IMG/VR virus record: IMGVR_UViG_3300047157_000131
Span: 1 to 38,212 of that record
Strand: one strand, 5' to 3'
Source: a virus
DNA: 38,212 nt
The notes under the pieces are model-generated. The model ran no database searches, was not told the origin of the DNA, and saw only the letters and a program-made list of their open reading frames with translations. The position numbers were made by a program, and so were the translations under genes. Shown in pieces: positions 1 through 34,651 of this stretch. Position 1 is the stretch's first letter, and the number at the start of each line of letters is the position of its first letter.

Positions 1-1515
1 GTTGATGGCAGAGCTGCTGTAGCACCTCCTCCTGAAGATGCACTTGATGGATTTTTGATTTCGCTAACTGCTTTTGAAGCTTGTGCTATTGTAGAAGCTA
101 TGGATATACCTGCAGAAGCTGTGTTTATTCCAACAAATGGCTGTCCTGCTGTTATTGGAAATGCAGCTACAGCTTTTGCGTTTGCGATTGCAGTGTTAGA
201 AATTATTTGTGCTATTGCTCCAGCTTTTTCTATAATAACTCCTGCAACAGCCATATTTTTATTTTCACCAGCGACATCCTGTAATAGTTTTCCTACAGAA
301 GAAACAGCTCTTCCTATTTCTCTAATACTTCTTTGTCTTGCTTCAGATTCTTTGTCACCAACTTTAATTCTTTGATTAGCATAAAATTCTGTAATTCTTG
401 TTAAATCTTCCTCATAACCTATCCTATTGTCTAAGTCTTGATATAGTAAATCAAGTTCTTTTATAGCATTATCTTCAGCCAAGTTAATTCTATCAGTTGC
501 ACTTTGTATTTGAAATTGTTTTAAATACTCTGCTCTTTCATTAAATGCAATTTCTGCTGCATCTAAAAAAGGTATATTGCTAAAGTCAATATCTTCAGGA
601 ATACCAAGAAAATCCTCTAAGAATTTACCTTCATCAAAGTCTTCTTCTGTATCAGTAAAACCACTTGTGCTAAAATCAAATGTATCTGGTTTTTTTAACA
701 AATCGTTGAACTCAATTAACAAATCTCTACGTTTTATTATAGCAGCATTTTGTTTGTTATAAGCATCCAACAAGTTGTCAATTGCAGTTAAATTACTTGC
801 CGTTACACTGCTTATGTCACCAGCATCTTTCTCAACATTATATATTTTTTGAAGCCTGGTTTGTTCTTTAAGAAGCTCTGCCTGTGTTAATTGATTTCCA
901 GCAGTTACTTTTGCGTTTTCATTAAATATATCTTCTTGCTCTCTTAAGTTTAATTGTAAATTAACATAGTCCTGTGTTAGTTTGTTTATAGCTTCTTGAT
1001 CTCCTAATTGAGATTTAACTACCTCTGCAAACTTACTGTCAGTTGCAGTTAACAAATCTGTAACTTCTTGTCTTTTCTCTAAAGTGGTATTTACACCGTC
1101 TAATAAATCTTTATATCTCCTTAGTTCTTTAGTTGATTTTACAATAGAGTCATCGAAAGAGTTTATTGCTTGAGAGGCTCTTTCTCCTTGTATAGACATT
1201 CTTTCAAGTAAAGCAATAACAACATTTGCTACAACTAAAAAACCAATAGGACCTGTAAAAGCTTTCCTTAACTCTATAAAAGCGTTTTTAAAACCACCTG
1301 TAGTTCCAATTAAGGTAGTCATTAAAGTAGTTAATTGAGATAAGTTATTTGCTACACCTCTAAAACCATAGTTAGCATCTTGAACACCTCTACTAAATTC
1401 AACAAGAGTTGCAGAAGCTAACCCTGTCTTATCTGTTTGTTGCTGGGTAACTAAAGTTAGTTTTTTATATTCATCTTCTAATAAACGTATATCAGCCGTT
1501 TTTATTATCTGCCAT
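1..1515 (-). CDS. Tape measure protein, N-terminal and central part (partial at window edge)
   Basis: The long minus-strand frame is open from about 1520 to the window edge and reads as a roughly 500-residue tape measure fragment. It has a segment like LVEFSRGVQDANYGFRGVAN near the start, a hydrophobic stretch (GPIGFLVVANVVIALLERM), long charged helical regions, and an Ala/Ile/Ser-rich end with a Gly-Gly-Gly-Ala run at the edge. Such proteins set tail length and sit inside the tail tube. The matching C-terminal end is at 38042-38212. An ATG at 1515 gives MADNKN and then a stop after one more codon; the long frame is +1 from it, joined at an A5 run (1498-1502). A GTG at 1520 is the only in-frame alternative. 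Families of this type usually carry more N-terminal sequence, so a deletion is also possible. Confidence 0.8.
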
Positions 1516-1651
1516 ACCACCTACGTTTAATTACTTCTTTTGCTTCCTGTATTGTTAAAGGAGCTTTATACTTTCCTTTAGCAATGTCTATATAAGGATT
1601 AACTCCATAAAAATTATCTGTCTTTAATAGTTCTATTATTAATTTAATCAT
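1505..1651 (-). CDS. Small conserved-type tail-region protein (48 aa)
   Basis: This 48-residue reading frame starts MIKLIIELLKTDNFYG and ends IKRRWYGR. Its ATG overlaps the stop of the large upstream tail gene (TAATG) and its end overlaps the tape measure start region, which is good evidence for translational coupling. The sequence is charged, without membrane segments or cysteines. I do not recognise a domain. Its place just before the tape measure gene resembles that of small tail proteins in flavobacterial siphoviruses, but a role in tail assembly is inference from position only. Confidence 0.65.
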   Translation of the reverse strand: MIKLIIELLKTDNFYGVNPYIDIAKGKYKAPLTIQEAKEVIKRRWYGR

Positions 1652-4620
1652 TATTCATCTGTTTGGTCTGCTGTTATAATTCCACTATCTGCATATATGT
1701 CTGTTGCATCTACTGTTAACGTTCCTGTTACAGGAGGTGCTATTGGAGATGATTCAGCAACACAATCTGCATTATAAATTAAATTATCTTCACCTCCCAT
1801 ATATCCGTGATTGTAACATTCATAACTAATAGTTCCAAAGTCACTGCTAACAGTTACAGTTACAGTTCCGTAATAATATGTATATGTATTTCCGTCAAGT
1901 CCTGCTTTTGTTCCACCAGAATTAGTACCTGTGTAACTTATTCTATCTTCTTTACCAAAATTATGAAAAGCTATAGGATGTCCTATAGGAATATTCTGAA
2001 GTACATATGTTCCTTGTCCCATTTGATAAGCACCATATTTATTGTCAAAATAATATATGTTACCTGCTGATGTTGTTTCAACAGTAATATTAAATTCTCC
2101 TGATAAACAAGAGAAAGATTTAATAGAATAATATCTTTGTAATTCTAAATTAGATTTACCAGTCAATAAATCAACATCAATTTTGTTAATACTATATGTC
2201 TTTCCTGACACTCTGATTTTATCAGCTAAAGAAAATTTAGATAAAAAAGCATTTGTTAAATTAGCTTTTAAGTTTACTGTTCTTGACTTTATATCAAATA
2301 AGTGAGTTATGTAATTTTTGTAATATAAATTAAATAAGTTGTTTACATTACTTGTTTCTCCTGATTCATAAACTCTATACTCATCTGTTTCAAGACCAAA
2401 ATGATTTGATTGAGAAGTGTATATGTTTACTGAATTTAACGGTATAAAATAACTTGTTAGAGGGGTTACCGATTGACTTACAGTAGTTCCTGATGTATCT
2501 CTTGCTGTGTATGGTATTGATGTTCCACTTGTAATTAAGTGTGGATAAAATAAAACAGGTTTACCAATATGTGGATTGTATTTTTGTTCGTGAAAAGAAG
2601 ATGTTGTAGAGCCAACATTTTTATCACTACTTCCTTTTTTTATACTGTATCCAACCTGAATATCTGTTTCAGCCTGTCCTGTTTCTTTCAATCTTTCAAA
2701 CTTCATATGACCAAAAGGAACCTTTATTTCATATTTCTTTTCTGCTCTTGATTCTGGTGCGTTCCATCTTTCTCCTCCCCATTCTAAACCAAATTCGTTT
2801 TTATGTTGATTTGCAAGAATAGATTCAGTATCTTCATATTTAAACTCTATTTGACTGTATGGTAAAACTCTTTTTACTGATGAAGTAGAAGTGTCTATTT
2901 TGTCAGTTATATCAAGTTCTGCATTTGAAGAAGAATAATAAGCATCAAAAGTCATTACTCTAATTCTTTTTGTATTAGATTGACCGTTTGTATAACCTGT
3001 GTTTAAATCTCCCTCTACATAACAAACAAGATTAAACATTTTAAATAAACCTGATAAAAATTCTATAATAGTCATATCAGGCATATTTTTTGTAATAGAA
3101 AATTTACCAGTACCAGCTACTATTATTCCATTCATTTGTCCACCACCAATAAAAACATCTGTTATTTCATATCTATCTGAATCTGGTCTTGTCATAAATT
3201 GAACTGAAAAACCTCCATCAAAATCTATAGCAACACTATCATCTGTAATAATAACAAATTCGTATTCACCGTCTTGTTCTACACGAAAATCTAAATTTCT
3301 ACTTCCATTTCCACTACCAAATTTAGTGAATAGAACACCATCTTTTAATACATCAACTGAATATGAAGATGAAGTATTTGTTGTTGAAGTATAAAAAGTA
3401 CATTCAACATCATCTACAAAATCACTATTGATACCTTGTACTATTATTTTATCACCAACTGAACCAGAGGTTGAACCAGAAGAATTAGTCACCGTAATAT
3501 CATATACAGATGTAGATGTATTATAAGTGTTTCTATATGGATAATAGCTTCCCACAGTAAAAGTATTTACTTTTGTTCTTTTTGGTACTGAACTAAATAA
3601 ACTACTTTCTTCTACATCGGTATTTAACCACATATATAGATTGTAATAATCTAAATTTGCAGTATTAAAAAAGTCATTAGAAAACTCTATATTGACAGTT
3701 CCAGAAGAATCATTGTTAATTTCTTTTTCAATAGCTCTTATAATTTCGTGTACTCTTATAGCTGGTTTTAAATATTCATATTTAAGTCCGTTTGGTTTTG
3801 GATATGAACTTCCATTATAATATAAATTACCATCTGCAATTTGACCATAAAAATTAGTATTACTGCTATAATAAAGTCTTTCTGTTGTCGATATTAAAGG
3901 AACAACAACAGGCTGTTTATAAAACATTTTTGTTGTTAATGTACCAGAAGAAGGAGCTGATGTGAATGTGATTGTACCTGAAACACCATTATATGTATAA
4001 TCACTTGAATTTTGTAAAACATTTGAAAGATATACCTTGAATTCTGATGTGCTTCTTGGATATGGATTGTAGTCTAATAACTGAAATGTTTTTTTTACCC
4101 CATCAGCAGTACCTATTTCTATTGCAACAGGGTCTAAAAAGTCTTTGCTGTTTGTTAAATAATCATAAAAAGTTTCAGTGCTTGAAGCATCATATGCTTT
4201 ATTTAGAATCTCAAAGTTATCTAATGACGATAGTTTAGTTAGTTTTAAGTTATTAAACAGCTCTTTTAATGTTCTTAAATTTCCATAAAAAGTAACTTTA
4301 TATGCACTTGGTTTATTGAATTTAATATCTACACTATCAAGTGTTATGTAACCTTCTCTGAAAGGTCTATCATTAATTTCTATTCTTGCTTCTTTTGCAG
4401 ATCTTGCATCAAACCCTCCTTCAACTATATCGTAATCGTAAAAATGTTTAAATACTTTATTATTTCTTGATGATGCAGGAAGAGAGAAATTTCTACTAAA
4501 TTCAGTAAATATTTTATCAGGACTACGAAAATCCTTTATAGAACTTACTATGTTTATTGAACCATCTTGAAAAACATCAACCTGTTCATTTTCTATATAA
4601 AGCTGTATCTTTTGATTCAT
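1651..4620 (-). CDS. Large tail / baseplate-type protein (989 aa)
   Basis: A 989-residue protein starting MNQKIQLYIENEQVDVFQDG. The N-terminal part (about 1-120) is charged and describes a compact domain with FREGYITLDSV; the middle is rich in Ser, Thr, Tyr and Asn as in beta-structured tail proteins. Around residues 780-830 there is a segment with SKFSLADKIRVSGKTYSINK, of the kind seen in distal tail or baseplate hub proteins of Bacteroidota phages. The C-terminal 150 residues contain paired cysteines and Gly/Tyr-rich sequence. It starts at the stop of the 359-aa gene (TAATG) and is followed by the small gene before the tape measure. A role in the tail tip, possibly host contact, is inference. 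Confidence 0.75.
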   Translation of the reverse strand: MNQKIQLYIENEQVDVFQDGSINIVSSIKDFRSPDKIFTEFSRNFSLPASSRNNKVFKHFYDYDIVEGGFDARSAKEARIEINDRPFREGYITLDSVDIKFNKPSAYKVTFYGNLRTLKELFNNLKLTKLSSLDNFEILNKAYDASSTETFYDYLTNSKDFLDPVAIEIGTADGVKKTFQLLDYNPYPRSTSEFKVYLSNVLQNSSDYTYNGVSGTITFTSAPSSGTLTTKMFYKQPVVVPLISTTERLYYSSNTNFYGQIADGNLYYNGSSYPKPNGLKYEYLKPAIRVHEIIRAIEKEINNDSSGTVNIEFSNDFFNTANLDYYNLYMWLNTDVEESSLFSSVPKRTKVNTFTVGSYYPYRNTYNTSTSVYDITVTNSSGSTSGSVGDKIIVQGINSDFVDDVECTFYTSTTNTSSSYSVDVLKDGVLFTKFGSGNGSRNLDFRVEQDGEYEFVIITDDSVAIDFDGGFSVQFMTRPDSDRYEITDVFIGGGQMNGIIVAGTGKFSITKNMPDMTIIEFLSGLFKMFNLVCYVEGDLNTGYTNGQSNTKRIRVMTFDAYYSSSNAELDITDKIDTSTSSVKRVLPYSQIEFKYEDTESILANQHKNEFGLEWGGERWNAPESRAEKKYEIKVPFGHMKFERLKETGQAETDIQVGYSIKKGSSDKNVGSTTSSFHEQKYNPHIGKPVLFYPHLITSGTSIPYTARDTSGTTVSQSVTPLTSYFIPLNSVNIYTSQSNHFGLETDEYRVYESGETSNVNNLFNLYYKNYITHLFDIKSRTVNLKANLTNAFLSKFSLADKIRVSGKTYSINKIDVDLLTGKSNLELQRYYSIKSFSCLSGEFNITVETTSAGNIYYFDNKYGAYQMGQGTYVLQNIPIGHPIAFHNFGKEDRISYTGTNSGGTKAGLDGNTYTYYYGTVTVTVSSDFGTISYECYNHGYMGGEDNLIYNADCVAESSPIAPPVTGTLTVDATDIYADSGIITADQTDE

Positions 4621-9229: not shown

Positions 9230-9692
9230 TTATGTTTATTTGTGATTCTAAATCTTTTAAGTAACCTTGTTTTATATCTTCTGTTATTTCATCTTTGTAT
9301 TTCTGATCTACATAATCTAATATATTTGCTCCTTTATAACCAAACCTTTTTATAGTACCTTTTGTAGCAATAGCATCTTGAATGGATTTAATCATCCTTA
9401 ATTTGCTATTTTGTTTATTCATTGGTTGCAATCCTTTAGCATATGCCCATTCTGCTATTTTATTATAAGGAGGTCTTTTTCCTGGTTTAGTTCCTTTGTC
9501 AACCGAATCAAAATATTCAGCAGCATAGATGTTTAGTGAGATACTTTTACTACTTGCAAATACAGTTCCGCTAACACTGTTTCTTAATCTCCTTGTTGCA
9601 TTTAAATTCTTTGCATCAAGCTGATTCTTTATTTCATCAGTTATTTTCTTACGTACTCTGTTTAATGCTTCTGCTGTAAAAGTATAGACCAT
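9216..9692 (-). CDS. HK97 gp10-like tail/neck protein (158 aa)
   Basis: The protein starts MVYTFTAEALNRVRKKI; the ATG at 9692 shares a base with the TAA of the 153-aa gene and is preferred over a start two codons upstream. An N-terminal basic helix is followed by RLRNSVSG, then YAAEYFDSVDKGTKPGKRPP, a pattern typical of the HK97-gp10 family (head-tail joining or tail completion) in which a variable loop with Gly-Thr-Lys-Pro occurs near the middle. Its place directly after the tail terminator-like gene and before the adhesin gene matches a role in tail or neck completion. Confidence 0.6.
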   Translation of the reverse strand: MVYTFTAEALNRVRKKITDEIKNQLDAKNLNATRRLRNSVSGTVFASSKSISLNIYAAEYFDSVDKGTKPGKRPPYNKIAEWAYAKGLQPMNKQNSKLRMIKSIQDAIATKGTIKRFGYKGANILDYVDQKYKDEITEDIKQGYLKDLESQININGNT

Positions 9693-10153
9693 TAGCAAAG
9701 AGATAATTCATTTGTTGGTACTTGTATATCTACAGTCATTCCCCATCCTGCTAATTGATTCTCATACTTATCTAAAAATGGTTCTGCAGTTACACTTGTT
9801 ATTACTTGAAAGTTATCAGAGAAAGCATCTCCTCTTCTTAAGTTTTGTTGTAAGTCGTTTATGACTTGTAGTTGTGTATTTAATACATCTTGCAAATTAT
9901 CATTACCATAGAAATTATCTTCAGTCTGCTTTTCTTTGTTTACATCTACTATGTCTAAACATAATACTTGCAAGGTAGCAGTCATTATTCTATCTGTAAA
10001 TGTTACATTACCGAAGATAATATGAGCAAGAGGATATATAGTGGTCTTATTTAGGTCAACTTCTAATATGTCACCGAAGGTGACGGTTTTTGTAGTTCCG
10101 TTATTTCTTAATATATCTTTTAATTTATCTAATACTGTATATACTTGTCTCAT
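9692..10153 (-). CDS. Tail terminator / tail completion-like protein (153 aa)
   Basis: A 153-residue protein starting MRQVYTVLDKLKDILRNN. It has an N-terminal helix, a strand region around VTFGDILEVDLNKTTIYPLAH, and a later segment LAGWGMTVDIQVPTN, which is the strand order common in small tail terminator proteins. The ATG overlaps the stop of the -1 frame of the tail chaperone (ATGA at 10150-10153), so translation is probably coupled to the frameshifted product. Assignment is by fold-like pattern and operon position; no catalytic motif is expected in this family. Confidence 0.55.
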   Translation of the reverse strand: MRQVYTVLDKLKDILRNNGTTKTVTFGDILEVDLNKTTIYPLAHIIFGNVTFTDRIMTATLQVLCLDIVDVNKEKQTEDNFYGNDNLQDVLNTQLQVINDLQQNLRRGDAFSDNFQVITSVTAEPFLDKYENQLAGWGMTVDIQVPTNELSLC

Positions 10154-10934
10154 CTTGTGTTTTGTTTTAACATTCTTCTTTCTAATTCATTCTTTTCCTT
10201 TTCAAACTCTAACCAGGTTAAGCATTGAAATAAGGAAAGTTTTGTAACGTCTTTAAATTTTGTTGGGTCGCCTCCAGCAAGTCCATAAATCGATTGATAC
10301 CAACCCCATTTTGCTCCAAAGTTTGCTGTAGATCCGAGTCCACCTTCAGCTGTTTCCCCAAAGAGTCCATCATATGCTGCGACAACTCTTTGCCTAAACG
10401 GTAAAAAAAAACCGTTGCACCTAAAGCTACATTAACAGGAGCATCTAACATTACATTTGCATACCTATCTGTACCTTCATAGTCTTCTATTAGGTATAAA
10501 TCCTTTTTCTCAAACACTACTGGTCTATATAGTACAGCTAATGCTTTGTGCATCTGTTGCCAATCTGATATATATTTATCTAAATCAATAAATTCTCCAA
10601 GAGATATGTCATCAAGTTTAGGTATGAAACCAAACTTTACCGTTTCTCCTGTAGGATCTGTCATTTCAAATGTTCTTTGAAGTGGTGTATCTTCTTTAAA
10701 CATCTCTGCAATGTGTCCTATAATCCCACTAAATTCTGTTAGAGGTAAATTATAAGCTTGTTTCATTGTAATACCACAAAAACATTCCAGTAACTTTAAA
10801 TTAGCAAAGTCTATCTGCTCCTTTGTAGGTTCTTTACCTTCTTCATACTTTACAGTACTTATATACTTCTGATACTGCTTTAAAGATATTCCCGATAACT
10901 CTTTTGGGATGCTTAGGGTGAATGTTTTACTCAT
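10150..10934 (-). CDS. Tail assembly chaperone, -1 frameshifted long form (about 261 aa)
   Basis: The 238-aa frame from 10934 contains a run of nine T on the minus strand (10403-10411). A -1 shift there enters a frame that stays open to 10150 and encodes FGAKWGWYQSIYGLAGGD, then a Trp/Leu/Glu-rich helical end with EFEKEKNELERRML. This frame has a stop just upstream of the T run and no ATG, so it can only be reached by frameshifting. Its stop overlaps the next gene's ATG. The G/G-T arrangement of tail chaperones in siphoviruses works this way: a minor long form binds the tape measure protein. The run could alternatively be a sequencing indel, but both frames look conserved, which argues for a real site. 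Confidence 0.75.
10218..10934 (-). CDS. Tail assembly chaperone, unshifted short form (238 aa)
   Basis: The protein starts MSKTFTLSIPKELSGISLKQ and is acidic and helical, with TMTDPTG-like and GFIPKLDDISLGEFIDLDKY segments typical of tail assembly chaperones in Bacteroidota phages. DWQQMHKALAVLYRPV and YEGTDRYANVMLDAPVNVALGA follow. After the T9 run the unshifted frame continues with GVGINRFMDLLEATQQNL and stops at 10218. It is the expected major product; the -1 form is listed separately. It lies just after the methyltransferase remnant and opens the core tail operon. Confidence 0.75.
   Translation of the reverse strand: MSKTFTLSIPKELSGISLKQYQKYISTVKYEEGKEPTKEQIDFANLKLLECFCGITMKQAYNLPLTEFSGIIGHIAEMFKEDTPLQRTFEMTDPTGETVKFGFIPKLDDISLGEFIDLDKYISDWQQMHKALAVLYRPVVFEKKDLYLIEDYEGTDRYANVMLDAPVNVALGATVFFYRLGKELSQHMMDSLGKQLKVDSDLQQTLEQNGVGINRFMDLLEATQQNLKTLQNFPYFNA
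10403..10411 (-). promoter_or_regulatory. Slippery sequence for -1 ribosomal frameshifting
   Basis: Nine consecutive T on the coding strand, read GTT TTT TTT TAC, contain the X XXY YYZ form T TTT TTT. The -1 frame continues for about 84 codons. No clear strong pseudoknot was identified by eye downstream; an ACGG/CCGT pair flanks the T run itself, so the run sits in the loop of a short possible hairpin. Confidence 0.7.
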
Positions 10935-14761: not shown

Positions 14762-15976
14762 TTATCTGATAACATAAACACCTTTGTTGGCGTTAGCTAA
14801 GAAGTATTGAATACAATAACGAAGTGAATCTAATTGGTGATTCCATTTATCTACTGGTCTTGTATTTCTTTCGTGCCATACATAATTGTTAAGCTCTTTA
14901 ACAAGCTCTGTACTATCTGGATCTATTATTAAATCAAAGTCCTGGATAAGAGCTATCCCTGTTAGTATAGACCCACTGCGTTTAATAGTTGGTTTTATGT
15001 TACAATATTCTTTCAGCTCTGATATAAGTCTTGGCTCTGCTGAATCACATATGATTAAATCTTCTCCTGCATATCTTCTGTTATTCTCTCCTATCTCTTT
15101 TGTTGACATACCTGCTTTAGCATACATTGTCTTAACCCATATCTTTTTACTTTCTTTATGTATTGCAGCTTTTATAAGAACAGTAGGATCTACAGAGAAA
15201 CCAAAGTCTTGACCATATATAGATTCAGCACCAGTATTAAATAAACCTGTGGACCAATTACTAAAGATAACACCTTCTGCTTTATCCATCCATCCACCAA
15301 GTATCTGGTGATTATATCTATCTGGTCTTCTGCGTCTAATATCTTCCAGCTGCAATAGAAATGAATCTGATAAGTTTTCTATGTTATCTTTAAATGTAGT
15401 ATGTATATAAGTTACATTATCTACAAAGTCATTAGTACCAGGATTAACTCCTTTACCTGCAAAGAATCTTTGATATATCCAATGCTCTTTTGTTGTAGGG
15501 TTTAGTATCATCATAACCCTATTAGGTTTAGACTTACTTCTAACTGACTGATCTATCTTATCAAAGTCTTCCTCCTTAATTAATTCTTCTGCTTCATCAA
15601 GCACCCAAGTAGTTATCCCACTAATCGACTTTAGTGCAGCAGTTTGATTCCCTGCTGATGTACGGATACCTTTAAATAGTATTGAGCTTCCAGTACTTAT
15701 GTTTAAGATTTCATCTTTAGTAATACGAAAATGTTCCATAATACCATAGAGTTCTAACTTCTCAAGGAACTCTGGAATAATTGAGTTAGCAGCACTTATC
15801 ATAGTATAACGAGTGAATAGTATCTTATGACCCTGTTCAAACGTTAGAAAGGCTAAAAAGGTGGTTATAGCGAATGACTTACCACTTCCTCTACCTCCTG
15901 TTATAACAAAGTATCTTGAGTCGTTACCTAATGAATTGTATTTATTATTGAGTACTGGCTTCTTCATCATTATCAA
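14762..15976 (-). CDS. terL: Terminase large subunit (404 aa)
   Basis: The packaging ATPase-nuclease. Walker A is GGRGSGKS at residues 27-34 and Walker B with catalytic acids is VLDEAEE at 125-131; the coupling segment follows as MMILNPTTKEHW. The nuclease domain shows YGQDFGFSVDPT near 235-246 and an ICDSAEP segment near 305, the acidic metal-binding positions of the RNase H-like fold. Length is normal for the smaller TerL proteins. The start overlaps the small terminase gene by about 30 bases; MMKKP or MKKP two to three codons in are alternative starts. Its last bases are followed directly by the 17-bp motif array, and a 14-of-15 match to that motif lies inside the gene (14970-14987). Confidence 0.95.
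   Translation of the reverse strand: MIMMKKPVLNNKYNSLGNDSRYFVITGGRGSGKSFAITTFLAFLTFEQGHKILFTRYTMISAANSIIPEFLEKLELYGIMEHFRITKDEILNISTGSSILFKGIRTSAGNQTAALKSISGITTWVLDEAEELIKEEDFDKIDQSVRSKSKPNRVMMILNPTTKEHWIYQRFFAGKGVNPGTNDFVDNVTYIHTTFKDNIENLSDSFLLQLEDIRRRRPDRYNHQILGGWMDKAEGVIFSNWSTGLFNTGAESIYGQDFGFSVDPTVLIKAAIHKESKKIWVKTMYAKAGMSTKEIGENNRRYAGEDLIICDSAEPRLISELKEYCNIKPTIKRSGSILTGIALIQDFDLIIDPDSTELVKELNNYVWHERNTRPVDKWNHQLDSLRYCIQYFLANANKGVYVIR
14970..14987. repeat. Near match to the 17-bp motif inside the terminase gene
   Basis: CCCACTGCGTTTAATAG differs from the common GC form at one position of the first 14. In the gene it encodes IKRSG, so it may be coincidental coding sequence. Confidence 0.4.
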
Positions 15977-23469: not shown

Positions 23470-26087
23470 TTAATTTATTTTAAATGCCATATATATATAA
23501 TCATTGCCATTTCCATTTGTTTGACCTAATCCAGGTCCACTACCAATTAACTTAAACCCTGTAGATATAAATTCTACATTTGTTCCTGATTCAGTTGCTT
23601 CTGCTGCAAAATCGTTAGGTTTTATATTTTTACTACCACCACGAACACTATCTAATATAACCCAGTTATCAACTCCATCTGTTACTTTTATTAATACAAA
23701 GTCAGGTTGGAATCCTGTTGTTATGGTTTTAGTTGTCGTACCATCTCCAGTATAACTTCCAAACTTACTATATCCTGTTACATCGTGGAAACAGTACATT
23801 ATATAATCATCTCCACTTCCATTTCCTAAAGAACTTGTGCCTAAAGTCACAGTCGTTGCAGTTGGTGCAGTATCATTCCAAGCAGTTGTTGCTGTATCTT
23901 CAGCTCTTGTGTCATTTAATTCTAAATATTTAGTAAATCCTATAGAAGTATGACCAACCATCCAATTTTGAGCTGAATTAAGTCTTTTAGCTATTATAAA
24001 AGTTGGTGCAGAACTTAATCCGTGTGGAATTTTTTGAACAGAACCAGTCCCATCATATTTTACTATACTAAATCCTGCATTAGCATTTGCACTAACTAAT
24101 GAAGCAAGTGAGCCATTTGGTAATCCATCAGGAAATTCAACTGTATCATTATCTGAAGCTGATTCGTTATATAAAGCAGTAATTTGAGTTGATGATAAAC
24201 CTACGCTATACACCCTTAATTGGTCTAATCTTCCCGCATAGTGATTCCAACCTGCATAAGGTGGGTCAAATAATTTTAAATTACCTGCTGACATACCTGT
24301 AAGTGTTGTTATAGTTTCTGCTAAAGAACCATTAAGGTATGTTTTAAGGCTTGTTCCATCATAAGTTGCAGCATAATGATACCAAGTATTTGCAGAAATA
24401 GATGTTCCACTACCTCTATTTGAACCACCAGTAAATATATATATTTTACTCATTTCTGTTCCTATTGCAAAACCTGTTCCTGTTTGTAATATTACACGAA
24501 TATCGGTTCCTGATAAATCTGTTGCATAAAACCAAAAAGAAAAAGTCCAAGCAGTTGTCATTGGTGGTGTTTGAGAAAGAGACACTTCGCTGTTTGTTCC
24601 ATTACTTACTACTGCTTTATTAAATTTACCACTTGAAGTATAAGCTATATCAACTCCATTAGCACCATTATTATTACCTGCTACATCATTAACATTATCT
24701 TCAAATTTATAGACACCTGTTACAGAGCTATTAAAGAAAGCAGTCGGTTCGTTATCGTCGGCTTTCCACGCCCAAGCAACGTAGGTTGAAGCACTATCAT
24801 TAATTTCATTATCAAGTCCTAATGTAAATCCATCTGCATCAAAAGAAGTAAGTGTTGCTCCACCTGTACTTTCTGCATTTGTATTATTTGATTGTATAAA
24901 TTTTGTTGCTCCTCTTAAGGTGTCAAATAAGTTATGATTTTCAGCACTCGGTCCTCTTTCTTTTATCCAAACTAAATTTGGACTAAAATCTAAACCTGTA
25001 ATGCTTTGTGTACCACTATTACCTGTATAAGTTTTTACTGCAAAACTATCTGCAAGTGTTGGTGCTTCTGTGTCAGGGTCTGAAGCAAATGCCATATAGA
25101 TATATGTAGCTCCTGAACCATTTATATCACTATTTGAAATTTGAGGTTCAAATCCATTAGAATAAAAATATACAAATTTACTTGTGCTTCCAACAACTTC
25201 GGCATCAGCATTATTTGCTTCTAATCTATTGTTTCTTGGATTTGTTAAATTTCTTTTGTTATCAAACATTAACCAACTTGCTGCAGCATCTGTTCTTTTT
25301 ATCATTATAAATGCAGGTTCAAATCCTGTTTCTATTAAGTTACCTGCCGCACCTGTACCTGTGTATGAGCCAATCTTTGAAAAGCCATCAATTGAAGCAA
25401 AAGCATAAGCTATATAATCACTTCCACTTCCGTTTACATCACTACCTGATGTAAGTGTAAAAACTGAACTTGTTGGTGCAGTATCTTGCCAAACATTTGC
25501 AGTTCTAAATGCAGGAGTACCATTTAACTCTAAATATTTTGTCCACTCTAAAGCACCTACTACCCAATCTGAACTTCCTGATGTCTTCTTGATAAATATT
25601 ATTTCTGGTGCAACTCCTAAATTATGACCAATTGATGCATTACTTCCAGTCCCGTATATTTAATTATTGAAAATCCTGCATCTGTATTTGCTTGTACTGT
25701 ACTTGTAATATCCCCATCAGTATTGCTGCTCGTAGTTCCTCCGTTTGCTTTCCAACACCAAGCTACATATTCTCTACCATTAACATTAGGATTGCCCTTA
25801 ACATTAAAACCATTTGTTTCAATTACTGCGTGTGAGGAATTACAATCTTCAGCATTAGTCAGGTTTGTATATAGTAAACAACCTGCAGTTCTTGATGAAT
25901 CTATTGTTTTATGTTCACTACTTGCATTTCTGCCTTTTATCCAAACAAAATCAGGAGTAAAACCAACTTCAATAAATTTTGATGAGGTACCATCTCCAGT
26001 AAAAGTAACCACCTTAAAGTTTTCACTTGGAGTTAATGCACCACTTGCAGTAGCACCTGCACCAATTAATCTTTTATTTAAACCCAT
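23470..26087 (-). pseudogene. Tail fibre-like protein with LamG domain, split by a frameshift (about 872 aa)
   Basis: Two frames make one gene. The first (26087-25617, MGLNKRLIGAGATASGALTP) is broken near 25650, where one missing base makes it run out with LEVMHQLVII; the second continues from the same point in the next frame to 23470. Repeated units of about 90-150 residues carry DFVWIKGRNASSEH or LVWIKERGPSAENH and YVAWCWKA or YVAWAWKA, four copies or more, as in DUF7483-type fibre repeats. A LamG/concanavalin-like jellyroll of about 200 residues (TAWTFSFWFYATDL, NTWYHYAATYDGTSLKTYLN) is inserted, probably sugar-binding. If the break is an assembly error, it is one functional protein. Confidence 0.75.
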
Positions 26088-27314: not shown

Positions 27315-27399
27315 CTTTTATCTTTTCTATATAACTCTTTAATTTTATTTCGTTTTCTTTCTTTGGTTTATATGTTTTTTTCTTCTTTATAATACCCAT
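27292..27399 (-). CDS. Small Lys-rich protein, long allele (35 aa)
   Basis: MGIIKKKKTYKPKKENEIKL then KSYIEKIKDVVWKRI. The ATG lies inside the last codons of the connector gene. In the second copy of the duplication a one-base difference shortens the same frame to 18 residues. Overlaps at both ends support translation, but the low complexity makes it uncertain. Confidence 0.4.
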   Translation of the reverse strand: MGIIKKKKTYKPKKENEIKLKSYIEKIKDVVWKRI

Positions 27400-27884
27400 C
27401 CTGTCATATTTTGATCTCTTTCTGGATACATACCTCCATCTTGTGAGCCTATATATTCTGGATACAATTCACTATTTGAATCCATATAGTCAATAAACCT
27501 TTGTGTATAGAAGTCTGCAGTAGATTTAGCTTGATGTACCAGATTGTTTATTTCTTCTAATGATGCTGAATCACTGTTTTCTGATCTATGTTTAAATACA
27601 CCTCCATTGCTAATTTGAAAAGCTGCATATTTCATATATTCTGATTGGCTAAACCAAATAAGCATTGGCTTTAAATATGTATTTACAAGAGTTGAATAAT
27701 CTCCAGATAAAGAACTGTTAACTACATCTGATTGTAATTTATTATATAAAGCTGTACCTAATTGCGTTTGTATATAAGTATCTTGTGCTACTTCAACAAA
27801 CTGTATTAGTTTATCAGTATCTACATTTCCATCTATTATAGACTTTCTTTTTAACTCTTCTAATGTTATAAATAATGCTTTCAT
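27387..27884 (-). CDS. Head-tail connector protein, DUF6712-like, copy 1 (165 aa)
   Basis: MKALFITLEELKRKSIIDGN, then DTYIQTQLGTALYNKLQSDV and LKPMLIWFSQSEYMKYAAFQ. This all-alpha pattern, with YIQ..LG..LY, is that of gp6-like connectors of Bacteroidota phages, which bind the portal ring. The ATG overlaps the portal stop (ATGA). It is identical in protein sequence to the copy at 31323-31820. Confidence 0.75.
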   Translation of the reverse strand: MKALFITLEELKRKSIIDGNVDTDKLIQFVEVAQDTYIQTQLGTALYNKLQSDVVNSSLSGDYSTLVNTYLKPMLIWFSQSEYMKYAAFQISNGGVFKHRSENSDSASLEEINNLVHQAKSTADFYTQRFIDYMDSNSELYPEYIGSQDGGMYPERDQNMTGWVL

Positions 27885-29614
27885 TTCTTATAGTTTGGAT
27901 GATGTCCGTTATTAGGCATATTTTTAGGTGCAACTGATACCTCTGAAGGGTTTTTAGGCTCTTTTAAGCCATCTTTTATTGCTTCTGACTCACTAACAAG
28001 GTTATTATCATTAACTCTTCTCTTATACACCTTCATTTCCCAATAGTGATGACAATTTACACCTCCTTTAAACTTAAATAATGAATAATTCTGTCCTTTA
28101 TGACCTAATTCTTTATTTATACCTCTAAAAGACATCATATTTATATCTTCTTTTCTAAATACTAAATTTTGACCTGTTAACAGTTCCATTCTTTGACAAA
28201 AACGTCTGCTGTTAGCAGAATTTCTTACAGGACCATAAGAGTAGCGAACCTTATATGTTGAATTGTCTTGTGAAGACTTCTTATTAGGTTTAGCATCATC
28301 TTTTGATACTTCTGCAAGTTTAGTAAAGTCAAATTCTGCTTCTGTGTCTTCTACTTTTTCTGTATGAACAAGTTCCCAGTCACTGTCATCAATCTTTTCC
28401 CCTAAAGACTCTAATTGTGATAAGATGTCATCACCTTCTTCATCTGTAAAGTCTTCTTTTTCTTGACTTGATAGTTTTTCACCAGTCTCTTCTTCTCTTT
28501 TAATCTTTGTTTCAATATTATCAAGTTCTGTAAACTCAATTGGTTGTAGAGTAACAAAGTAAAGATTAAGGTTTATACCATTAAACGATAACAGCTCATT
28601 AAATGAGTTGATTAGTTGGGTCTGAAATGGTCTAATAACAATGTTATCCATTAAAACACTTGCAGTTCTTAATTCTTCTGCATTATTACCAAAACCAGTA
28701 TTATCTTTAATACCAAGTAATATTGGAGATACAACACCGTGACCAATCATTATCTTCTCTCTTGACTCTTTAGCTAAAAAGTCATATTGTGCGTGAGCAT
28801 CTGGTAGATGAATAGGTTCAACAGTTGATTGGTTTTCTGCATTATCATTAAATGCTAATATAAATCTACCTGCATTACTACTTCCGCTAAACTTTTCATA
28901 TATCTTTCTTTCTATAATCTCTTGTGCTTCATCACCTGGAATACCATTGTTAAAGTTTAATAGTAAAGAAGGCTGCAGTCCATTCTGTATATTATTAATA
29001 TGATAATTAGATACTTCTTCCTCTAAATTACAATACTGTAAACATCCTTGATAATCAACTGGAGAATAATAATAGAAACCTGCTCTATAAGGCTTTATAC
29101 AGTATATCTCTACGTTTTCACTTTTTTTACCAAACTTAAATGCTGGTATTCTTTTAGGCTTATCAGAAGGCTTTATTTCACTCCATTTAGGATGATAGTA
29201 ATATGCTTTTATTTTACCGTCTTTTGCTTTCTCTGCTCTTAATGTTTCAGTAGGAAAATGCTTTAACTGCATTATCTTTGTTTTCCTTTTATTATATACA
29301 ACTTGTATAGATGCTTGACCTAAAAGTTTTAAGTCTCCTGTAATTCTTCTTACATCTACATCTTTTAGTATTTGTTGCATTTGACCAAACTGAACAGAAT
29401 TATCTTCTGAATCTGTTGCGTCTAATCCTCTACCATAAATTAAATCTGTGATACCATTAATACATCTTGAGTTTGTTGGACTCCCAGTATATCTATCTAT
29501 AATGTCTCCAAAATAGTTATTATTGTCACCATATTCAACCCAATCATATCTGGTTGATTCTTTTATGCTTGGCACCTCGTACCCTGATAGGTTTATTACT
29601 TTTACTTTGCTCAT
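27881..29614 (-). CDS. Portal protein, copy 1 (577 aa)
   Basis: Residues 1-340 follow the portal family of Bacteroidota siphoviruses: YDWVEYGDNNNYFGDIIDRY, NSRCINGITDLIYGRGLD, an HFPTETLRAEKAKDGKIKAY wing part, YHINNIQNGLQPSLLLNFNN and a stem/clip region EKIMIGHGVVSPILLGIKDN. An acidic linker follows, and then an extra domain (about 455-550) with GPVRNSANSRRFCQRMELLTG and FKGGVNCHHYWEMKVYK, of the type also found attached to other head genes. The portal forms the dodecameric DNA gate. It overlaps the 121-aa gene and connector by four bases each. The protein is identical to copy 2. Confidence 0.85.
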   Translation of the reverse strand: MSKVKVINLSGYEVPSIKESTRYDWVEYGDNNNYFGDIIDRYTGSPTNSRCINGITDLIYGRGLDATDSEDNSVQFGQMQQILKDVDVRRITGDLKLLGQASIQVVYNKRKTKIMQLKHFPTETLRAEKAKDGKIKAYYYHPKWSEIKPSDKPKRIPAFKFGKKSENVEIYCIKPYRAGFYYYSPVDYQGCLQYCNLEEEVSNYHINNIQNGLQPSLLLNFNNGIPGDEAQEIIERKIYEKFSGSSNAGRFILAFNDNAENQSTVEPIHLPDAHAQYDFLAKESREKIMIGHGVVSPILLGIKDNTGFGNNAEELRTASVLMDNIVIRPFQTQLINSFNELLSFNGINLNLYFVTLQPIEFTELDNIETKIKREEETGEKLSSQEKEDFTDEEGDDILSQLESLGEKIDDSDWELVHTEKVEDTEAEFDFTKLAEVSKDDAKPNKKSSQDNSTYKVRYSYGPVRNSANSRRFCQRMELLTGQNLVFRKEDINMMSFRGINKELGHKGQNYSLFKFKGGVNCHHYWEMKVYKRRVNDNNLVSESEAIKDGLKEPKNPSEVSVAPKNMPNNGHHPNYKK

Positions 29615-29976
29615 ATTACGATATATTTTTGGCTATCTGTATCTGTCCCTGTATATTGGTCATACTTATTACTATTTAATGTATGATCTGTTGTATTATC
29701 TGTTTGAGAAGTACAATAACCTTTACCTCTATAGAGTAATGTACTTCCTTGTTTTAACTCAAAAGAATAGCTGTTTTCAGCTGTTAAAATACTAAAAGCC
29801 ACAGACATCTGCAAGTAATTACCATCTGATGAAAGACTTGAAGTAATATCTGTTATAGTTTGAGTTTTTCTTGTACCGTCTTCTATAATAACCATAGATA
29901 AGTCACTCGCAACAGTGTAAGCTCTTGGAATTATGCTAATTGTTTGAGATGAAGTTGTTGGTGATAATCTTATCAT
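29611..29976 (-). CDS. Unrecognised virion-type protein, copy 1 (121 aa)
   Basis: MIRLSPTTSSQTISIIPRAY, with beta-rich Ser/Thr sequence, AENSYSFELKQGSTLLYRGK and a Thr/Asp end. Its stop overlaps the portal start (ATGA). The pattern suggests a small Ig-like or decoration protein; no family is recognised. The same gene is present at 33547-33912 with identical protein sequence. Confidence 0.65.
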   Translation of the reverse strand: MIRLSPTTSSQTISIIPRAYTVASDLSMVIIEDGTRKTQTITDITSSLSSDGNYLQMSVAFSILTAENSYSFELKQGSTLLYRGKGYCTSQTDNTTDHTLNSNKYDQYTGTDTDSQKYIVI

Positions 29977-30008
29977 ACCTATATAACTTATAAAGCTTAA
30001 TGTTGTTC

Positions 30009-30037
30009 AAAAAAAAAGAGGACTATTAAAGTCCCCT
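30009..30037 (-). terminator. Terminator after tail-tube gene, copy 1
   Basis: Minus strand GGGGACT-TTAAT-AGTCCTC (one G-T) followed by nine T. It lies between the tail-tube gene and the 121-aa gene. Confidence 0.75.
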
Positions 30038-30052
30038 TTCTGTGTTTAAGAA

Positions 30053-30073
30053 AATCCTCTATGTTTAAGAGTT
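30053..30073. repeat. 17-bp motif after tail-tube gene, copy 1
   Basis: CCTCTATGTTTAAGAGTTAG; on the minus strand it begins just after the TAA of the tail-tube gene, as at the 54-aa gene and terminase. A weaker copy CTGTGTTTAAG lies 13 bases further on. Confidence 0.6.
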
Positions 30074-30638
30074 AGCTACCTACTGTAATAGTAGCTGCAG
30101 GAGTTCCTGTTAATCCAGCAAATTCACTGAATGGGAATAACGCATCAGTAGAATCTACAGTCATAAAGTTAGCTGGAGTTGTTTCCATACCAGTTAATGT
30201 TAATGTATATCCACTTAAGTCTCCCATTGCAGCACCAGTTACAATTGTACCACCTGACACATCTGCACCGTGTTCAAGACCAACCATCATACAATTACCG
30301 TTATAATCTTCAACAACAACGTGAGGTCTTCCATAAGCTAATAACTTTAATTCTTTGTTATCTTCTTTAGATAATTTCTTAAGAGTTAAATTTAATGTTT
30401 GCTCATAAAAAGTAGTTCCGTTTTCTCTTGAAGCGTTTACTGTTTGTTCTAATGAAGAATTACCTTTTAACTCGTATTTGTAGCAAACTACAGTACTTGA
30501 ATTAGTTAAATTGGTAATTTCGTCATTTGTTAATGTAACAGAACCTAAATCTCCGTAGTCAACGAAATAAACATTTTTTATTCCACCAACGACATCTTTA
30601 CAAGGTTCTTTTCTTCCTAATGATAAATCACAAGCCAT
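30072..30638 (-). CDS. Probable tail tube protein, copy 1 (188 aa)
   Basis: MACDLSLGRKEPCKDVVGGI then VYFVDYGDLGSVTLTNDEIT, beta-rich central part with YEQTLNLTLKKLSKEDNKEL and MMVGLEHGADVSGGTIVTGA. The last part, YTLTLTGMETTPANFM, resembles tail tube or capsid-decoration proteins of Bacteroidota phages. It follows the capsid gene and has its own terminators on both sides, as expected for an abundant product. Identical in protein sequence to copy 2. Tail tube versus head decoration cannot be settled here. Confidence 0.6.
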   Translation of the reverse strand: MACDLSLGRKEPCKDVVGGIKNVYFVDYGDLGSVTLTNDEITNLTNSSTVVCYKYELKGNSSLEQTVNASRENGTTFYEQTLNLTLKKLSKEDNKELKLLAYGRPHVVVEDYNGNCMMVGLEHGADVSGGTIVTGAAMGDLSGYTLTLTGMETTPANFMTVDSTDALFPFSEFAGLTGTPAATITVGS

Positions 30639-30656
30639 AATTTTTATTTTTTATAT

Positions 30657-30694
30657 AAAAAAAGGGTGGTAGGCTCAAGGCTTACCTACCCTTT
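30657..30694 (-). terminator. Terminator after capsid gene fragment, copy 1
   Basis: Minus strand GGGTAGGTAAGCC-TTGA-GCCTACCACCC, an imperfect long stem followed by seven T. The same structure follows the full capsid gene (34593-34630). Confidence 0.75.
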
Positions 30695-30715
30695 CTTAAG
30701 TTAAACAGTTATTTA

Positions 30716-31129
30716 TTATGATGTAGCGTATAATACTACTTCATCTCCAATTCCGTGCTGAATACCAGCAGTAAATCTCATAACAACTCTCACATTTTGA
30801 GAACCATCAAGATCAGCCATATCAATTACTTTTACTTCGTTTTGGTCAGACATTAGACCTGTTCCAAAGAATAAGTTTGATTTTTGTGCTGCTACAGCAT
30901 CGTTATCAGATAATCCTGGAGCTAATGCAATTTGAATACCATCAAACTGAAGACCAGCACCATTGTTATACCACTGTGTACCTTGATTGTTTGTACCTGC
31001 TGCTCCTAATCCTGAAGCTCCAAATCCACCTAATGCTCTAATGTAGTTTCTATACATATTAGAAGGTAAGTAGATAGTCATATCTTCTGAACCATATACC
31101 CCATCCATTCGCTTCATTAACGCTCCCAA
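30716..31129 (-). pseudogene. Capsid gene fragment, C-terminal part only (copy 1 of duplication)
   Basis: From about 31096 down, the sequence matches residues 185-311 of the full capsid protein (YGSEDMTIYLPSNMYRNYI onward), with one visible amino-acid change (GLMSDQ for GLLSDQ). Upstream of the junction at TATAC (31095-31099) it runs into a fragment of the small SWFG gene. A TTG at 31129 would open a 137-codon frame, but no real start or N-terminal capsid domain remains. It is the cut-off edge of the duplication and probably not made. Confidence 0.85.
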
Positions 31130-31278: not shown

Positions 31279-31335
31279 TTAATTTCGTTTTCTTTCTTTA
31301 GGTTTATATGTTTTTTTCTTCTTTATAATACCCAT
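31279..31335 (-). CDS. Small Lys-rich protein, short allele (18 aa)
   Basis: MGIIKKKKTYKPKERKRN, the counterpart of the 35-residue frame at 27292-27399. A one-base difference in the A/T run changes the frame and stops it early. Uncertain as a gene. Confidence 0.3.
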   Translation of the reverse strand: MGIIKKKKTYKPKERKRN

Positions 31336-31820
31336 CCTGTCATATTTTGATCTCTTTCTGGATACATACCTCCATCTTGTGAGCCTATATATTCTGGATA
31401 CAATTCACTATTTGAATCCATATAGTCAATAAACCTTTGTGTATAGAAGTCTGCAGTAGATTTAGCTTGATGTACCAGATTGTTTATTTCTTCTAATGAT
31501 GCTGAATCACTGTTTTCTGATCTATGTTTAAATACACCTCCATTGCTAATTTGAAAAGCTGCATATTTCATATATTCTGATTGGCTAAACCAAATAAGCA
31601 TTGGCTTTAAATATGTATTTACAAGAGTTGAATAATCTCCAGATAAAGAACTGTTAACTACATCTGATTGTAATTTATTATATAAAGCTGTACCTAATTG
31701 CGTTTGTATATAAGTATCTTGTGCTACTTCAACAAACTGTATTAGTTTATCAGTATCTACATTTCCATCTATTATAGACTTTCTTTTTAATTCTTCTAAT
31801 GTTATAAATAATGCTTTCAT
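31323..31820 (-). CDS. Head-tail connector protein, DUF6712-like, copy 2 (165 aa)
   Basis: Protein sequence identical to the copy at 27387-27884, with a single silent base difference noted near the start (31791). The motifs are the same: YIQTQLGTALYNKL and KPMLIWFSQSEYMKYAAF. The stop-start overlap with the portal is preserved. In this copy the operon reads on from the intact capsid gene, so this is the copy most likely to be the native arrangement. Confidence 0.75.
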   Translation of the reverse strand: MKALFITLEELKRKSIIDGNVDTDKLIQFVEVAQDTYIQTQLGTALYNKLQSDVVNSSLSGDYSTLVNTYLKPMLIWFSQSEYMKYAAFQISNGGVFKHRSENSDSASLEEINNLVHQAKSTADFYTQRFIDYMDSNSELYPEYIGSQDGGMYPERDQNMTGWVL

Positions 31821-33550
31821 TTCTTATAATTTGGATGATGTCCGTTATTAGGCATATTTTTAGGTGCAACTGATACCTCTGAAGGGTTTTTAGGCTCTTT
31901 TAAGCCATCTTTTATTGCTTCTGACTCACTAACAAGGTTATTATCATTAACTCTTCTCTTATACACCTTCATTTCCCAATAGTGATGACAATTTACACCT
32001 CCTTTAAACTTAAATAATGAATAATTCTGTCCTTTATGACCTAATTCTTTATTTATACCTCTAAAAGACATCATATTTATATCTTCTTTTCTAAATACTA
32101 AATTTTGACCTGTTAACAGTTCCATTCTTTGACAAAAACGTCTGCTGTTAGCAGAATTTCTTACAGGACCATAAGAGTAGCGAACCTTATATGTTGAATT
32201 GTCTTGTGAAGACTTCTTATTAGGTTTAGCATCATCTTTTGATACTTCTGCAAGTTTAGTAAAGTCAAATTCTGCTTCTGTGTCTTCTACTTTTTCTGTA
32301 TGAACAAGTTCCCAGTCACTGTCATCAATCTTTTCCCCTAAAGACTCTAATTGTGATAAGATGTCATCACCTTCTTCATCTGTAAAGTCTTCTTTTTCTT
32401 GACTTGACAACTTTTCACCAGTCTCTTCTTCTCTTTTAATCTTTGTTTCAATATTATCAAGTTCTGTAAACTCAATTGGTTGTAGAGTAACAAAGTAAAG
32501 ATTAAGGTTTATACCATTAAACGATAACAGCTCATTAAATGAGTTGATTAGTTGGGTCTGAAATGGTCTAATAACAATGTTATCCATTAAAACACTTGCA
32601 GTTCTTAATTCTTCTGCATTATTACCAAAACCAGTATTATCTTTAATACCAAGTAATATTGGAGATACAACACCGTGACCAATCATTATCTTCTCTCTTG
32701 ATTCTTTAGCTAAAAAGTCATATTGTGCGTGAGCATCTGGTAGATGAATAGGTTCAACAGTTGATTGGTTTTCTGCATTATCATTAAAGGCTAATATAAA
32801 TCTACCTGCATTACTACTTCCGCTAAACTTTTCATATATCTTTCTTTCTATAATCTCTTGTGCTTCATCACCTGGAATACCATTGTTAAAGTTTAACAGT
32901 AAAGAAGGCTGCAGTCCATTCTGTATATTATTAATATGATAATTAGATACTTCTTCCTCTAAATTACAATACTGTAAACATCCTTGATAATCAACTGGAG
33001 AATAATAATAGAAACCTGCTCTATAAGGCTTTATACAGTATATCTCTACGTTTTCACTTTTTTTACCAAACTTAAATGCTGGTATTCTTTTAGGCTTATC
33101 AGAAGGCTTTATTTCACTCCATTTAGGATGATAGTAATATGCTTTTATTTTACCGTCTTTTGCTTTCTCTGCTCTTAATGTTTCAGTAGGAAAATGCTTT
33201 AACTGCATTATCTTTGTTTTCCTTTTATTATATACAACTTGTATAGATGCTTGACCTAAAAGTTTTAAGTCTCCTGTAATTCTTCTTACATCTACATCTT
33301 TTAGTATTTGTTGCATTTGACCAAACTGAACAGAATTATCTTCTGAATCTGTTGCGTCTAATCCTCTACCATAAATTAAATCTGTGATACCATTAATACA
33401 TCTTGAGTTTGTTGGACTCCCAGTGTATCTATCTATAATGTCTCCAAAATAGTTATTATTGTCACCATATTCAACCCAATCATATCTGGTTGATTCTTTT
33501 ATGCTTGGCACCTCGTACCCTGATAGGTTTATTACTTTTACTTTGCTCAT
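31817..33550 (-). CDS. Portal protein, copy 2 (577 aa)
   Basis: Identical at protein level to the portal at 27881-29614; the DNA differs at several third-codon positions, for example near 32405, 32700, 32789, 32897 and 33424. The same three parts are seen: the portal body, an acidic linker (EEGDDILSQLESLGEKIDDS) and the C-terminal domain with RRFCQRM and GGVNCHHYW. Two complete portal genes in one siphovirus genome would be unusual. Silent-only change over 577 codons means either strong selection or two sampled strains. Confidence 0.85.
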   Translation of the reverse strand: MSKVKVINLSGYEVPSIKESTRYDWVEYGDNNNYFGDIIDRYTGSPTNSRCINGITDLIYGRGLDATDSEDNSVQFGQMQQILKDVDVRRITGDLKLLGQASIQVVYNKRKTKIMQLKHFPTETLRAEKAKDGKIKAYYYHPKWSEIKPSDKPKRIPAFKFGKKSENVEIYCIKPYRAGFYYYSPVDYQGCLQYCNLEEEVSNYHINNIQNGLQPSLLLNFNNGIPGDEAQEIIERKIYEKFSGSSNAGRFILAFNDNAENQSTVEPIHLPDAHAQYDFLAKESREKIMIGHGVVSPILLGIKDNTGFGNNAEELRTASVLMDNIVIRPFQTQLINSFNELLSFNGINLNLYFVTLQPIEFTELDNIETKIKREEETGEKLSSQEKEDFTDEEGDDILSQLESLGEKIDDSDWELVHTEKVEDTEAEFDFTKLAEVSKDDAKPNKKSSQDNSTYKVRYSYGPVRNSANSRRFCQRMELLTGQNLVFRKEDINMMSFRGINKELGHKGQNYSLFKFKGGVNCHHYWEMKVYKRRVNDNNLVSESEAIKDGLKEPKNPSEVSVAPKNMPNNGHHPNYKK

Positions 33551-33912
33551 ATTACGATATATTTTTGGCTATCTGTATCTGTCCCTGTATATTGGTCATA
33601 CTTATTACTATTTAATGTATGATCTGTTGTATTATCTGTTTGAGAAGTACAATAACCTTTACCTCTATAGAGTAATGTACTTCCTTGTTTTAACTCAAAA
33701 GAATAGCTGTTTTCAGCTGTTAAAATACTAAAAGCCACAGACATCTGCAAGTAATTACCATCTGATGAAAGACTTGAAGTAATATCTGTTATAGTTTGAG
33801 TTTTTCTTGTACCGTCTTCTATAATAACCATAGATAAGTCACTCGCAACAGTGTAAGCTCTTGGAATTATGCTAATTGTTTGAGATGAAGTTGTTGGTGA
33901 TAATCTTATCAT
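33547..33912 (-). CDS. Unrecognised virion-type protein, copy 2 (121 aa)
   Basis: Identical to the protein at 29611-29976. The DNA of the two copies looks identical by eye in this gene. It is followed by the portal with an ATGA overlap and preceded by the terminator at 33945-33973. A small beta-rich protein; possible decoration or tail completion role is inference. Confidence 0.65.
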   Translation of the reverse strand: MIRLSPTTSSQTISIIPRAYTVASDLSMVIIEDGTRKTQTITDITSSLSSDGNYLQMSVAFSILTAENSYSFELKQGSTLLYRGKGYCTSQTDNTTDHTLNSNKYDQYTGTDTDSQKYIVI

Positions 33913-33944
33913 ACCTATATAACTTATAAAGCTTAATGTTGTTC

Positions 33945-33973
33945 AAAAAAAAAGAGGACTATTAAAGTCCCCT
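33945..33973 (-). terminator. Terminator after tail-tube gene, copy 2
   Basis: Same hairpin and T run as 30009-30037, displaced by 3936 bases. Confidence 0.75.
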
Positions 33974-33988
33974 TTCTGTGTTTAAGAA

Positions 33989-34009
33989 AATCCTCTATGT
34001 TTAAGAGTT
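33989..34009. repeat. 17-bp motif after tail-tube gene, copy 2
   Basis: Duplicate of the motif at 30053-30073, again directly after the stop codon of the tail-tube gene. Confidence 0.6.
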
Positions 34010-34574
34010 AGCTACCTACTGTAATAGTAGCTGCAGGAGTTCCTGTTAATCCAGCAAATTCACTGAATGGGAATAACGCATCAGTAGAATCTACAGTCAT
34101 AAAGTTAGCTGGAGTTGTTTCCATACCAGTTAATGTTAATGTATATCCACTTAAGTCTCCCATTGCAGCACCAGTTACAATTGTACCGCCTGACACATCT
34201 GCACCGTGTTCAAGACCAACCATCATACAATTACCGTTATAATCTTCAACAACAACGTGAGGTCTTCCATAAGCTAATAACTTTAATTCTTTGTTATCTT
34301 CTTTAGATAATTTCTTAAGAGTTAAATTTAATGTTTGCTCATAAAAAGTAGTTCCGTTTTCTCTTGAAGCGTTTACTGTTTGTTCTAATGAAGAATTACC
34401 TTTTAACTCGTATTTGTAGCAAACTACAGTACTTGAATTAGTTAAATTGGTAATTTCGTCATTTGTTAATGTAACAGAACCTAAATCTCCGTAGTCAACG
34501 AAATAAACATTTTTTATTCCACCAACGACATCTTTACAAGGTTCTTTTCTTCCTAATGATAAATCACAAGCCAT
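34008..34574 (-). CDS. Probable tail tube protein, copy 2 (188 aa)
   Basis: Identical protein to 30072-30638, with at least one silent base difference (near 34188). It is separated by about 80 bases and a terminator from the complete capsid gene. No membrane or signal segment; two cysteines near the N-terminus and two in the middle. Tail tube is the best guess from beta-rich pattern and place; head decoration is the alternative. Confidence 0.6.
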   Translation of the reverse strand: MACDLSLGRKEPCKDVVGGIKNVYFVDYGDLGSVTLTNDEITNLTNSSTVVCYKYELKGNSSLEQTVNASRENGTTFYEQTLNLTLKKLSKEDNKELKLLAYGRPHVVVEDYNGNCMMVGLEHGADVSGGTIVTGAAMGDLSGYTLTLTGMETTPANFMTVDSTDALFPFSEFAGLTGTPAATITVGS

Positions 34575-34592
34575 AATTTTTATTTTTTATAT

Positions 34593-34630
34593 AAAAAAAG
34601 GGTGGTAGGCTCAAGGCTTACCTACCCTTT
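34593..34630 (-). terminator. Terminator after major capsid gene
   Basis: Same long imperfect stem and T7 run as at 30657-30694. It lies 20 bases after the capsid stop codon and would isolate the abundant capsid message. Confidence 0.75.
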
Positions 34631-34651
34631 CTTAAGTTAAACAGTTATTTA

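Follow-up and report, generated by a model that had tools for sequence, protein, structure and literature searches.

Two selected C-terminal tails share about 160 nt downstream of a probable −1 frameshift site in a long-tailed phage gene

One gene of a long-tailed phage most likely gives rise to two proteins by a programmed −1 frameshift, and comparison with its relatives points to tandem slippage of the ribosome on T_TTT_TTT as the cause. The gene lies in a stretch of 38,212 nucleotides, here called the window, which is positions 1 to 38,212 of the IMG/VR virus record IMGVR_UViG_3300047157_000131. The majority of ribosomes would keep the frame and yield a product of 238 aa. In a minority of cases, a backward slip by one base after F177 would give a product of 261 aa, which joins the shared residues 1-177 to a different helical domain of 84 aa. 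Aligned relatives indicate that both C-terminal tails are under selection, with about 160 nt coded in two frames. Most long-tailed phages are known to have frameshifted tail genes, in which the unshifted frame normally ends soon after the slip. The slip itself is a well-known phage trick, but the long doubly used stretch is not.

The features of the gene are collected in Table 1. Frame 0 translates through the T9 run as ...ATVFFYRLG..., and downstream of the run the −1 frame encodes ...KWGWYQSIYGLAGGDPTKF.... The −1 frame is open from position 10431, is preceded by TAA, and has no ATG, GTG or TTG until an ATG near its end. It had been proposed from the window alone that the T9 run leads by a −1 shift into a frame with an upstream stop and no start codon, and that this frame closes on a stop overlapping the next ATG; the frames of the window and of 263 relatives strongly support the former, and the window's coordinates confirm the latter. 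The ATGA junction with the next gene recurs in 104 of the 253 complete loci. The G+C content of the overlap is 0.42, compared with 0.31 in the window.

Table 1. Features of the frameshift gene and its downstream neighbour (positions in the window)
Feature	Position	Strand	Description and evidence
Frame-0 gene	10934-10218	minus	238-aa unshifted product, shared residues 1-177 plus own tail 178-238; ORF list and homologues in 263 loci
T9 run	10411-10403	minus	read in frame as GTT TTT TTT TAC
Slippery heptamer T_TTT_TTT	10404-10410	minus	in phase; present in all T-type relatives, A_AAT_TTT instead in 8
−1 frame domain	10153-10404	minus	84 aa, LPFRQRVV...KWGWYQSIYGLAGG...KQNTR; always in the −1 frame among relatives
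Two-frame overlap	10221-10403	minus	both frames constrained over about the first 160 nt; silent-site ratios and profile, resampling nulls
Frame-0 stop TAA	10220-10218	minus	183 nt beyond the heptamer
−1 stop TGA	10152-10150	minus	overlaps the ATG (10153-10151) of the next gene
Next gene	9692-10153	minus	153 aa, phrog_30964, function not known; ATG overlaps the −1 stop as ATGA

The arrangement is conserved without exception. The first scan gave 52 loci with 32-93% identity. Further scans, seeded with an alignment and with four divergent members, and the cultured phages P12024S and P12024L raised the total to 263 distinct loci with both parts, and one scan alone returned at least 591 stretches encoding a relative. 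All 263 loci place the second domain in the −1 frame with respect to the first, and none fuses the two domains in frame. A single uninterrupted frame with eight or ten T, which the earlier note had named as the sign of a sequencing error, was found in no relative; the sites with ten T keep the −1 arrangement. A stop ends the +1 frame after a median of 6 nt. The frame-0 tail ranges from 63 to 264 nt across the loci. In a distinct phage clade (L140 and L143-L222), the frame-0 tail of the gene is shorter, in most cases 25 or 39 codons long. This clade was first met in a MAG labelled Euryarchaeota, and the archaeal label may reflect binning contamination.

The slip site is equally well kept. At all 262 assigned sites a heptamer of the form X_XXY_YYZ stands in phase inside the two-frame overlap; the remaining locus (L224) is interrupted upstream, and no site was assigned to it. 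The heptamer is T_TTT_TTT in 254 loci, within a run of nine T in 244 and of ten in 10, never of seven or eight. In the other 8 loci, which belong to two lineages, it is A_AAT_TTT; these lack a long run but retain the −1 domain, and in two of them (L040 and L071) no internal start precedes the WGWY core. A homopolymer of at least nine is therefore not universal, being present in 254 loci and absent from 8. Both heptamers fall in the class H_HH.U_UU.Y, which is among the most shift-prone in E. coli (PMC4066793). A search for hairpins as stimulators downstream of the site found none, with a mean z of −0.28 at +5 nt, equal to the controls.

The slip could instead occur during transcription. RNA polymerase would then add one U at the T9 run in some transcripts, and the U10 mRNA would encode the fusion, either by this route alone or together with ribosomal slippage. 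We regard this as unlikely, although it is the strongest competitor. The T run is at least nine at all 254 T-type sites, which is more than the heptamer alone needs and counts against a purely ribosomal slip. In addition, the run is still nine T in L138 and in the L164 group, where the codon phase has moved. In bacteria, slippage is efficient on nine consecutive A or T, the length at which the bacterial polymerase has been shown to slip well, and Thermus dnaX uses nine T (PMC5009743). However, the eight A_AAT_TTT loci offer the polymerase no long run and still keep the −1 domain, and from this we infer that the ribosome is the more probable agent. The floor of nine T is a hint towards the polymerase at most, because nine T in most loci follows from the residues V/L/I-F-F-Y/W plus the heptamer. 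The word "ribosomal" in the earlier note is thus favoured by the A_AAT_TTT relatives, but the floor leaves room for slippage by the polymerase.

The frame-0 sequence beyond the slip might be a mere shadow of the −1 frame, with selection acting on the −1 domain alone. Two observations would fit such a shadow. The length of the frame-0 tail varies widely, as given above, and the conspicuous motif GVGIN is largely the shadow of KWGWYQ, because its equivalent NGAGI in P12024S sits behind the frame-0 stop. The silent sites speak against it. In close pairs of the long-tail clade, the −1 fourfold sites, which are frame-0 second positions, diverge by 0.043 in the overlap. The corresponding values are 0.173 for the part of this frame that lies beyond the overlap and 0.220 for the gene upstream. 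The −1 fourfold-site ratio between the overlap and the single-coding upstream gene is 0.20 (bootstrap CI 0.13-0.27) and the frame-0 fourfold-site ratio in the overlap is 0.33 (0.24-0.44) in these pairs, no two of which have a sequence in common, although the tree still leaves them partly dependent on one another. Following the constraint profile, the overlap was taken to end 24 nt short of the frame-0 stop. Across the long-tail clade, the rate at −1 silent sites is 0.20-0.23 of that in single-coding sequence. The short-tail clade shows clear suppression in close pairs and weaker suppression in more distant pairs.

In both clades the suppression ends near the frame-0 stop. Constraint stops about 24 nt ahead of it, both where the stop lies 138-201 nt downstream (about 185) and where it lies at most 120 nt downstream (about 100). 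The end of the suppression moves with the stop, which argues against a fixed RNA element as its cause. Resampling agrees with this picture and places the length of the doubly open stretch well outside what chance would give. When the −1 protein of the window was held fixed and its codons were resampled, frame 0 stayed open for a mean of 33 nt as against the 183 nt observed, and 0 of 300 resamplings reached 183 nt; in the reverse resampling, the −1 frame stayed open in 0.3%. A BLOSUM test of the chemical mildness of frame-0 changes gave a positive result not only in the overlap but in one of the control regions as well, and was set aside. We therefore reject the shadow on the silent-site and open-length tests, and give it very little credence.

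Selection on both tails is accordingly our reading of the overlap, and the alignment of both frames with relatives that the earlier note had suggested does reveal constraint in each. Its extent needs correction. The last 24 nt or so are unconstrained in frame 0, so that about 160 nt rather than the proposed 165-185 are dual-coded. Similarly, frame 0 is constrained past the slip, as its conserved look had suggested, but the motif GVGIN owes that look mostly to KWGWYQ.

The −1 domain could also be a separate gene, translated from an internal start or by ribosomes that reinitiate once frame 0 has ended, as the annotation of P12024S implies. In P12024S and P12024L, a TAATG junction supplies an ATG, from which the second gene of P12024S is annotated, and in 12 of the 253 complete loci an ATG falls in the interval from the slip to the WGWY core. 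Such starts are exceptions: 234 of the 253 loci have no ATG, GTG or TTG in this interval. In addition, the residues from the slip to the core are conserved, beginning directly after the slip with L-x-F-R-x-R, and the long-tail loci have their frame-0 stop far past the core. We consider a separate gene highly improbable. Lastly, nine-base homopolymers are error-prone in general, but an indel from sequencing or assembly in a truly single frame is refuted for this gene family by the agreement of 263 distinct loci, cultured P12024S and P12024L included, by 8 loci without such a homopolymer, and by a direct scan of IMG/VR in which the exact T8 version of the site had no match, compared with at least 120 matches for T9.

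Structure prediction models the shared core with confidence as alpha/beta (pLDDT mostly 83-96), with a long helix (residues 167-198) that spans the slip site. The unshifted tail is modelled as helical with low confidence (pLDDT about 48-58), and the −1 domain as helical with high confidence (mean pLDDT 88). Neither domain has a relevant Pfam family, a named PHROG, or a PDB match by sequence or fold. Searches for homology to known chaperones gave sub-threshold matches in BFVD and nothing notable in Pfam, PHROG, PDB sequence or PDB fold, and tblastn of the −1 domain in phages returned matches at chance level. A Foldseek link to Flavobacterium phage 6H was too weak to be retained (E 0.006, low TM).

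The window comes from a Bacteroidota-type phage related to Inhaviruses. Its gene set includes a terminase (14762-15976), a portal, a head protease and a tape-measure-like gene (3-1520) that runs off the window. A position directly upstream of the tape-measure gene is a trait of the λ G/GT pair. In the window, five genes of 153, 160, 1162, 359 and 989 aa lie between the frameshift gene and the tape-measure-like ORF. P12024S has comparable genes, and its tape-measure-like gp49 is downstream of gp38/gp39, likewise not adjacent; gp49 looks like an unannotated tape-measure protein. The tape-measure-like ORF of the window starts at GTG, and just upstream a plausible ATG (MADNKNG, then a stop) lies in another frame (1490-1660, minus strand), a hint of an indel or of another frame change at the start of this ORF. 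Elsewhere in the window, about 3.7 kb including the portal gene occur twice in tandem (27353-31100 and 31289-35040, 98-100% identity, offset 3936), as either a recent duplication or an assembly artefact. The neighbouring ORFs 23470-25305 and 25617-26087 match the same tail-fibre-like PHROGs (phrog_19943 and phrog_24898), as if a fibre gene had been split or partly duplicated.

The earlier note had called the gene a tail chaperone. The frameshift anatomy and the tail-cluster setting fit this name; the absence of detected homology and the distance to the tape-measure gene do not. For these two reasons, we describe the gene as working like the λ G/GT tail-chaperone frameshift, rather than as an established member of that group. 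By analogy with λ G and GT, the short form would probably be a tail-assembly chaperone, and the long form, made at a set low ratio, would use its extra domain to recruit another tail component. A more far-reaching proposal is that at least nine T are kept since ribosome and polymerase both slip there, and that the gene is a tail-chaperone-like switch with two alternative C-terminal tails, each selected separately and both encoded by one stretch of about 160 nt. The majority form would then have evolved a tail of its own, and a large unannotated group of aquatic phages would conserve the switch. Taken as a whole, we find this proposal doubtful.

Hundreds of related phages keep about 160 nt selected in two frames. 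Therefore, the majority product very likely has a functional tail of its own, and the role of the unshifted tail becomes testable. The natural mixture of T9, T10 and A_AAT_TTT within one gene family also lets ribosomal and polymerase slippage be told apart. The frameshift of this family is not annotated in the records of P12024S and P12024L, and no report of it was found in the open literature searched. Annotators also gain a plain rule for treating this family, which the record of Nonlabens phage P12024S lists as a pair of unrelated 'hypothetical proteins'. The pairs gp38/gp39 of P12024S (L054, 3007-3701) and gp40/gp41 of P12024L (L055, 2995-3689) are both entered as independent hypothetical genes.

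Among known systems, the closest likeness is to the frameshift of the λ G/GT tail assembly chaperone (Levin 1993; Xu, Hendrix and Duda 2004, as summarised in PMC5009743). In both, a tail-cluster gene is shifted by −1 close to its end and thereby acquires a second domain that has no start of its own, in a long-tailed phage with a tape-measure gene. In contrast to λ, the slip and the frame-0 stop are 183 nt apart here instead of a few codons, both tails are constrained, the tape-measure gene is not adjacent and homology is not detectable. In the SEA-PHAGES collection, the slip averages 26 nt ahead of the in-frame stop (PMC10885494). The transcriptional slippage of Thermus thermophilus dnaX (PMC5009743) resembles our gene in having nine identical A/T in a coding region and two C-termini, but eight relatives here have a ribosomal heptamer in place of a long run. 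The gp38/gp39 pair of the Inhavirus P12024S is homologous, with the T9 run and the −1 domain; it differs in its annotation as two separate proteins, in a frame-0 tail of 25 codons and in the ATG in its −1 frame. Eukaryotic RNA viruses also make frameshift products that overlap another coding frame, such as cardiovirus 2B* and arterivirus nsp2TF. Our case differs from these in being a DNA phage tail-cluster gene with unrelated proteins and no known stimulator, and resembles them in that the shift enters a frame overlapping a coding frame for a long stretch.
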